This document shows, piece by piece, positions 21,482 through 23,276 of a stretch of DNA of 35,825 bases (positions are counted from its first letter, which is position 1; every line of letters begins with the position of its first letter). This DNA is from Crocinitomicaceae bacterium (GTDB lineage: Bacteria > Bacteroidota > Bacteroidia > Flavobacteriales_D > CAJJDF01): contig JAHEIE010000021.1 in NCBI GenBank assembly GCA_024639505.1, positions 1 to 35,825 on the forward strand, in the 5' to 3' direction. Made by a program: the position numbers and the translations under genes. The notes under the pieces were generated by a model. The model worked only from the letters and a program-made list of their open reading frames with translations, was not told the DNA's origin and did no database searches.

Positions 21482-21691
21482 CTAATCCGAAAACTCAGAA
21501 ATCAAATACACAATCGCTATGATAATCAACAAAAAGAAAAAGTACTTTGGATCTTTGTAAATCGGTTTTTTAGGCCGTTTGGTAAAGTTCTCATAGTTAT
21601 GAAAAAGCTTTCCAAAGTCCTTTTGTTTCTCCATCGCTTCCTTCGATGGCAAACTCGGTTTTTTGTCTTTATTTAATCTGTACTTTTTCAT
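21482..21691 (-). CDS. Small single-pass membrane protein coupled to the sigma factor
   Basis: A 69-residue protein with a basic cytoplasmic part (rich in Lys to about residue 48) and one C-terminal membrane helix (FFFLLIIIAIVYLI). Its start overlaps the stop of the sigma-factor gene by 4 bases (ATGA), which usually signals translational coupling. Genes directly behind ECF-type sigma factors often encode anti-sigma factors, but this protein is shorter than known zinc-binding or FecR-type anti-sigmas and has no Cys/His motif. I do not recognise the family; an anti-sigma-like tether is a hypothesis. Confidence 0.7.
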   Translation of the reverse strand: MKKYRLNKDKKPSLPSKEAMEKQKDFGKLFHNYENFTKRPKKPIYKDPKYFFFLLIIIAIVYLISEFSD

Positions 21692-22242
21692 TTTTTTGTT
21701 CCTTTCAGTAAGGATTTTTTAATCGATTCTATTATGCGATAAACTTTCATTTTGGCACTTGCTTCGGATATAGCAAATATACTTGCAATTTCTTTAAAAG
21801 AAAGCTCTTCAAAAAACCGCAGCTCAATCAAAGCACTCTTTTCTGGTGGCAATTCCTCCATCGCTCTCAATATTCTTTCAAGCTGCTTTTCATCTTCCTC
21901 TATCTCCAGTTCGCTGGCAATAGATGCTACAGAGTTTTCGTCTACTTTTACCCAGATGTTCTTTTTTTGTGACCTAAAAAACTGATTTACTTCGTTGCTC
22001 GCAATTCGATACAACCAAGATGAAAATGGAAATCCACGATCTTCGTATTTATCAATATGAGTAATTGCTTTCAAAAAGATGCGTGAACATACTTCTCCAC
22101 ACACAGATTCGTCTTGAATTTTTTTGTAAATAAAGACAAAGATTTGCTCGTAATATTTTTCATACAAATAGCTAAAGAACTTACGGTCCTTCTGCGATTT
22201 CTGGATGTATTCCAATTCAATATGTTTCTCTTTTTCAGTCAA
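21688..22242 (-). CDS. Sigma-70 family RNA polymerase sigma factor (ECF-like)
   Basis: A 184-residue two-domain sigma factor. Region 2 spans about residues 20-95, with FFSYLYEKYYEQIFVFIYKK and the DNA-contact stretch SSWLYRIASNEVNQFFRSQ. Region 4 spans about 128-178 (ALIELRFFEELSFKEIA followed by a helix-turn-helix and SEASAKMKVYRI). No region 1.1 or 3 is present, so it is ECF-like and directs RNA polymerase to a small regulon. Translation appears to start at TTG (22242), since no ATG is near. The downstream overlapping small membrane protein may regulate it. Target promoters are not identifiable here. Confidence 0.9.
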   Translation of the reverse strand: MTEKEKHIELEYIQKSQKDRKFFSYLYEKYYEQIFVFIYKKIQDESVCGEVCSRIFLKAITHIDKYEDRGFPFSSWLYRIASNEVNQFFRSQKKNIWVKVDENSVASIASELEIEEDEKQLERILRAMEELPPEKSALIELRFFEELSFKEIASIFAISEASAKMKVYRIIESIKKSLLKGTKK

Positions 22243-22305: not shown

Positions 22306-22614
22306 TTATTCTTGAATGAACTCGAATACAAATTTTTTGTGGGACTGCGTAACTTTTACTTTGGCACAATGCGAAATGTGATTTACCTCAAATTCCTGTT
22401 CGGTATCAAAAGCAGTTGAAGCTTCTGTCAGTTGAAATACTCTGTCGCAATCCATAATTCCTTGCGGAGTAAATCTTTGAATTCTAAAATTTGATTTTTC
22501 AGACTGAATATAGAACCATGCTCCACCTCCTTCGCCAGAAAGCCATTGGGCTTTTGCGGGTGTGTCTCCAGTTTTTTTTGGCGCAGTAAGTCGACCTGTC
22601 ATGTCCATATTCAC
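22306..22614 (-). CDS. DUF6695-like C-terminal domain protein (split part 2)
   Basis: A 102-residue soluble protein with WLSGEGGGAWFYI (about 25-37), FRIQRFTPQGIMDCDRVF and a closing strand KVTQSHKKFVFEFIQE. I recall this kind of sequence as the C-terminal part of one longer DUF6695 protein in other Flavobacteriia. Here it has its own start, GTG at 22614 or ATG at 22608, overlapping the upstream stop as GTGA. A -1 shift at 22620-22626 would join it to the upstream product. The function is unknown. The main uncertainty is whether it is made alone, fused, or is the product of a recent frame break. Confidence 0.7.
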   Translation of the reverse strand: MNMDMTGRLTAPKKTGDTPAKAQWLSGEGGGAWFYIQSEKSNFRIQRFTPQGIMDCDRVFQLTEASTAFDTEQEFEVNHISHCAKVKVTQSHKKFVFEFIQE

Positions 22615-23276
22615 TTCTTTTTTAAAGGATACAAAATATTCAATCGCTTGGTTAATTCACCATTTTTCAACTCGTAATAAAACCGATTGTCATTAATCAG
22701 TTTTACGTTGGTAATTGTGGTGTGAGTCACCGTGTAAGGAATCCGAATCAATAAATTTTTAACCCAACCAAGGTTACTTGCTTTGGCTGATTGCGCCACA
22801 AATCTAGAGCAATTTGTTCCGTTCAAATTCATGGGACCATAAATTATAGCCTCTTTATTTTGCATTGCTTTCGCTTTCGAAAAAGCTTTGTCTATATCAT
22901 TTACAAAAATGGTGGAAGCAATTAACCGGCCTTCGCCATGCGTTGCTTCTAGTGCCGCTAGTTCACTTAACAGCTCTTTGATATTTTCAATTTTATTGTC
23001 CTTGATAATTGGCTTTGTGTACAAAATTAAATCAGGATCAGTGTAGCTGTCTCTTACTCGTCCATGTTTTTTTGGTGTTTGATACCTGCCAAAATCAAAA
23101 TAATAGAACTCTTCTGCTTCATGATTTACTAAAATTAATGCAGCATGCCCAGCTTTATAAAAACCATTTTTTAAAAACCCCAATGTTCGCATAATCCCAT
23201 CGTACCATTTCCCTTCCTGAATCACCGGAGTGTCTGGCCAAGCAAGAGGTATTATGGTTCCTTTTGTAGATTTCAT
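22611..23276 (-). CDS. DUF6695-like N-terminal domain protein (split part 1)
   Basis: A 221-residue soluble protein. Features include IPLAWPDTPV at the start, GHAALILVNHE with a His (about 43-53), YYFDFGRYQTPKKHGR, an EATHGEGRL segment (His near 114) and GTNCSRFVAQSA with a Cys near 155. The His and Cys spacing recalls papain-like/NlpC-P60-type folds, and DUF6695 members share these blocks, but I cannot prove catalysis. The stop lies within a GTGA overlap with the downstream part, after PLKKK. It starts 3 bases after the flippase stop, so it belongs to the same leftward operon. Confidence 0.72.
   Translation of the reverse strand: MKSTKGTIIPLAWPDTPVIQEGKWYDGIMRTLGFLKNGFYKAGHAALILVNHEAEEFYYFDFGRYQTPKKHGRVRDSYTDPDLILYTKPIIKDNKIENIKELLSELAALEATHGEGRLIASTIFVNDIDKAFSKAKAMQNKEAIIYGPMNLNGTNCSRFVAQSAKASNLGWVKNLLIRIPYTVTHTTITNVKLINDNRFYYELKNGELTKRLNILYPLKKK
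22620..22626 (-). other. T-TTA-AAA slippery heptamer at the end of the DUF6695 N-part
   Basis: Read leftward, the coding frame runs CCT TTA AAA AAG AAG TGA. The heptamer T TTA AAA fits the X-XXY-YYZ rule for -1 ribosomal slippage, and a -1 shift places the ribosome exactly in the frame of the downstream part, with no stop between. An A6 run lies within it, so a recent indel or a base-calling error is equally possible. Confidence 0.5.

Follow-up and report, generated by a model that had tools for sequence, protein, structure and literature searches.

Two leftward genes meet in the window (the whole stretch of 35,825 nucleotides analysed) at a junction carrying slippery heptamers just ahead of the first stop codon, which raises the question of whether the locus represents a single gene joined by programmed frameshifting, a single gene that was broken, or two separate genes. 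The upstream gene (22611..23276, minus strand) encodes a protein of 221 amino acids that ends in LNILYPLKKK before the stop and consists of a TseH-like permuted NlpC/P60 domain. Its placement in PF25218 is borne out by the score (E 2.1e-45; 155.1 bits against a curated cut-off of 27), by the fold, as the AlphaFold model (pLDDT 88.5) matches TseH (PDB 6v98) with an E-value of 6.6e-9 and a TM of 0.72 on the target, and by the His/Cys pair, His44 and Cys156 being invariant among 45 sequences. The downstream gene (22306..22608, minus strand) encodes a DUF6695 C-terminal domain of about 100 amino acids, which belongs to PF20405 by its score (E 1.2e-24; 86.8 bits, curated cut-off 25). It is predicted to form an all-beta domain (AlphaFold, pLDDT 85.5); a fold search of this model against the PDB returned no significant match, and a PDB sequence search with the domain yielded weak cadherin matches and nothing else. 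The pair is flanked by an ECF sigma factor gene (21688..22242) and by a polysaccharide flippase-like gene (PF01943; 23280..24746, minus strand), the latter located 3 nt upstream. No phage relative was found.

The minus-strand junction reads TAT CCT TTA AAA AAG AAG TGA AT ATG GAC ATG ACA GGT. Two overlapping heptamers, T_TTA_AAA (22626..22620) and A_AAA_AAG (22623..22617), lie in the frame of the first gene, within its Lys-Lys-Lys coding end and 4 to 13 nt before its stop codon (TGA, 22613..22611). The first-pass annotation, which had pointed to T TTA AAA AAG just before this stop, was therefore correct in this respect. It had also described a GTGA overlap between the two genes, and this is indeed present at 22614..22611, where a GTG would overlap the TGA by 4 nt, although the second gene more likely begins at ATG 22608, 2 nt past the stop (junction 22606..22614, minus strand); the sole available ATG of the congener locus L037 aligns with this codon. 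GTG 22614 and ATG 22602 are the alternatives. Reading in the −1 frame meets no stop from 43 nt ahead of the TGA through to 22306, so that a −1 slip at the run would give a fusion of about 323 amino acids ending in the DUF6695 C-terminal domain, in agreement with the protein of some 320 residues that had been proposed. At the overlap, the locus thus has both an open −1 frame and an X_XXY_YYZ heptamer that is in frame.

Such heptamers are common in this AT-rich DNA. Counting in-frame X_XXY_YYZ heptamers (Y = A or T) in the 31 longest non-overlapping open reading frames of the window gave 101, with 14 of them among the final 20 codons of their gene, and the 10-mer TTTAAAAAAG occurs 65 times in the 2.16-Mb genome. 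On these counts the heptamer at the junction is ordinary, and its occurrence is no greater than expected by chance. We judge the heptamers at 22617..22626 (minus strand) to be incidental: the slippery A-run most likely reflects the lysine codons at the end of the protein and does not serve to switch frames.

The arrangement was then compared across relatives. Among 399 genomes of the order, a search with PF20405 identified 32 carriers, and a profile scan of named genomes yielded 80 loci, including a few duplicates, nearly all from Bacteroidota and Chlorobiota. Sorting with profile models for both parts, applied to loci possessing the first domain, gave 83 split loci, 21 fused loci and one without the second domain; L072 was dropped from the fused count, which fell from 22 to 21, as a run of N (masked bases) covers its junction. 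The two domains hardly ever occur apart, and some loci fuse them, but the earlier suggestion that relatives in Flavobacteriia carry both parts in a single protein is wrong for most of them, the split state being dominant. The link between the domains is not absolute either, as two genomes (G009 with L038 and G021 with L043) keep the C-terminal domain without the N-terminal one; a TseH-like gene was searched for throughout both genomes and was found in neither. One further locus, L057 (CATLPG010000002.1), is titled Saccharospirillaceae (Pseudomonadota); its TseH-like domain is identical to that of genome G005 from the window's family, and the bin is probably mislabelled.

The relation between the two frames turned out to be highly variable. 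Of 76 distinct split junctions, 42 place the second gene in the −1 frame and 28 in the +1 frame, and at the remaining 6 the frame is unchanged and a stop intervenes. On the tree of the first domain (77 split rows), at least 21 frame changes are required, and at least six changes between the split and the fused state, five of which are forced by starred branches (here L072 was counted as fused); the window is nested in a wholly split, family-level group. The distance between stop and start is far more constant. In 56 of 74 junctions the nearest start lies −8 to +10 nt from the stop, with −4 among the commonest distances, although the choice of the nearest start biases these values toward short distances. 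The other 18 fall outside this range, including a few whose gaps, at 24 to 66 nt, would leave coupling weak, and two further split junctions have no start within 60 nt. Within the window itself, 8 of 19 co-directed gene pairs, the one under study included, are spaced within −8 to +10 nt.

The same picture was obtained at close range, in four genomes of the genus, the window's included, and two of its sister genus. All six genomes of the family are split, with differing junctions. The junctions of the two nearest congeners (82 and 80% identical) read ATA AAA AAA GGA TGA, overlapped by an ATG, and ATA AAA AAA TAA TG, respectively. In the fourth genome of the genus (60% identical), the junction is AAA AAT GAG GCC TAG; the second gene is in the +1 frame, its ATG begins 8 nt before the stop codon, and no frame-joining heptamer is present at this junction. 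The sister genus comprises one species with a −1 and one with a +1 relation. Among the three species with an A-run, the distance from the lysine run to TGRL, a conserved motif of the second protein, varies, as would be expected if stop and start drift independently. The flippase gene stands beside the pair in all six genomes and the ECF sigma factor gene in five of them.

Taken together, this is an old and widely shared gene pair of Bacteroidota in which stop and start are nearly always almost superposed. The split is conserved, the frame relation has shifted repeatedly, and the closeness of stop and start has been kept. The explanation that we consider very probable is that of two co-transcribed genes forming one functional unit with coupled translation, the heptamer being a by-product. 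The products would be an enzyme of the TseH-like permuted NlpC/P60 type and, as a partner with which it may physically interact, a small all-beta DUF6695 protein. As stop and start are almost superposed, the ribosomes making the second protein have probably come straight from completing the first, which suggests that the second gene is translated mainly by termination-reinitiation at the adjacent start. Reinitiation would keep both products in step, while the AAA/AAG-coded lysine end would yield at most a trace of fused protein; the unit appears to have been repeatedly fused or fissioned during evolution. A free frame, a preserved stop-start distance and fusion in some lineages fit two subunits produced by coupled translation. 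In E. coli and Haloferax, reporters have shown that reinitiation requires overlaps or very short gaps, and gene pairs at −8 to +10 nt have been tied to termination-reinitiation and are enriched for subunits of heteromeric complexes (PMC10666635). The pair in the window is on one strand with its start at −4 (GTG) or +2 (ATG), and the arrangement is kept in relatives despite changes of sequence and frame. Among the possibilities raised by the first-pass annotation, gene fission with coupled translation is hence the one that is supported, in the sense of two genes and not one broken gene, with either the split or the fused state possibly ancestral.

Among the other explanations, an effector-immunity pair, in which a TseH-like antibacterial toxin is encoded next to a DUF6695 immunity protein, survives best, although we regard it as improbable. 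Overlapping genes are typical of toxin-immunity pairs, which counts in its favor. For TseH, phospholipase activity has been reported in a liposome assay, and the TseH clade has been associated with both Pfam DUF6695 and conflict contexts (PMC12994826). Against this, 21 loci join both domains in one chain, the two genomes mentioned above keep the C-terminal domain without the N-terminal one, and the neighbors encode TANGO2, a PLP decarboxylase, a methyltransferase or a flippase and not secretion functions. The VipA/TssB model PF05591, the sole T6SS model used, found no match in the window's genome, though a Bacteroidota-type T6SS may escape this model. A family named after a T6SS effector thus sits in conserved, metabolic-looking operons in Bacteroidota.

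Slightly less probable still is that the window's species and its two close congeners use programmed −1 frameshifting, which would yield two products, a short TseH-like protein and its long fused version, by slipping at T_TTA_AAA / A_AAA_AAG or at A_AAA_AAA. A canonical in-frame heptamer and an open −1 frame occur in all three genomes, the fused relatives show that the long form is viable, and with stimulators in place few motifs shift as readily in E. coli as A_AAA_AAG (PMC4066793). However, these three are the only ones of the 76 distinct split junctions with a frame-joining heptamer; the other 73 are unable to use it, and already the fourth genome of the genus has switched to +1. Neither the heptamer nor the −1 relation is therefore conserved among split homologs, and programmed frameshifting as a general mechanism was rejected on the basis of the junction survey. 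The varying spacing between the lysine run and TGRL in the three species and the abundance of heptamers in the AT-rich window likewise speak against it. A downstream stem-loop, one of the stimulators suggested at first, received mixed support: in the window, the 120 nt downstream of the slip site fold better than shuffled sequences (z −2.7), but an 80-nt fold is ordinary (z −0.06), and the corresponding regions of relatives reach only z −1.2, −1.0, −0.4 and −0.7 with differing structures. A stimulatory stem-loop is thus strong at one fold length only and is not common to relatives, and the upstream SD-like stimulator that had also been proposed is not visible in the window sequence. Low-level frameshifting may nevertheless occur in the three A-run species, as slippage on A_AAA_AAG in E. 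coli exceeds 0.1% even when no stimulator is present (PMC4066793).

That one real gene was split by a sequencing or assembly error, or by an indel that recently arose in the A-run, is extremely unlikely: both happen readily in homopolymer runs, the assembly consists of 119 contigs and fused relatives exist, but all sampled genomes of the genus and family are split with differing junction sequences and frames, most relatives in the wider sample are split as well, a sequencing error was rejected on account of the split congeners, and neither event explains 83 split loci in three relative frames.

With two coupled genes as the preferred reading, the gene neighborhood offers a more interesting lead than the heptamer. 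A TANGO2 gene (PF05742) is located directly upstream on the same strand at 26 loci (among them L131, L129, L114, L122, L128, L097, L039, L025, L045, L038 and L043), and this holds for split and fused units as well as for DUF6695 alone. In the order sample, TANGO2 and DUF6695 are adjacent in 12 of the 12 genomes that have both, including the two without the first domain, in which a lone gene for the DUF6695 C-terminal domain (L038 and L043) follows TANGO2. TANGO2 was searched for in the window's own genome and is absent there. The function of TANGO2 is disputed; a role in heme trafficking (PMC10470608) has been challenged (PMC12782551), and acyl-CoA binding has been proposed (PMC11867700). We tentatively put forward, as a rather unlikely idea, that the TseH-like protein and DUF6695 might be no secreted toxin but a two-part housekeeping enzyme, transferring acyl or amide groups in concert with TANGO2. 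If true, the debated function of TANGO2 could be approached genetically through this unit.

Other genes accompany the unit elsewhere. A PLP-dependent decarboxylase gene (PF00282) lies upstream on the same strand at 31 split and fused loci of other lineages (L104, L113, L101, L093, L125 and L130 among them), directly so in all except L111, and within the fetched flanks no locus carries both PF00282 and TANGO2. In one clade of Flavobacteriales, eight loci (L059, L061, L063, L065, L066, L070, L073 and L074) have a methyltransferase-like gene close to the pair, just upstream at the positions read (L061, L065 and L073). A 631-amino-acid protein with weak similarity to glutamine amidotransferases is encoded near the pair at 22 loci of Flavobacteriales (L079, L101, L093 and others), downstream of it where the position was read (L079 and L101).

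Several known systems resemble the locus in part. TseH of Vibrio cholerae (VCA0285, PDB 6v98, PF25218) has the same permuted NlpC/P60 fold with a conserved His and Cys, whereas the Bacteroidota protein precedes or is fused to a DUF6695 domain, no T6SS genes were seen beside the Bacteroidota loci, and the neighbors are metabolic. The dnaX and IS3-type −1 frameshift genes (A_AAA_AAG) likewise possess a canonical in-frame heptamer and an open −1 frame encoding a conserved domain; here, in contrast, heptamer and frame relation vary in homologs, and neither a consistent stimulatory structure nor an upstream SD-like element is visible. A heptamer in an AT-rich genome is thus insufficient for calling frameshifting. 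Closer are the termination-reinitiation pairs of Huber et al. (PMC6728339, PMC10666635), which are also on the same strand, spaced at −8 to +10 nt and kept through sequence change. They often encode subunits of one complex; for the pair described here, coupling and complex formation are deduced from the arrangement, and some relatives have longer gaps. As the frame drifts freely while the closeness of stop and start stays, the pair would be a clear example from nature of selection favoring adjacent genes over fused ones. Finally, the fused TseH-like and DUF6695 proteins of Bacteroidales, Saprospirales and some Flavobacteriales contain the same domains in the same order, as one polypeptide where the window has two genes.
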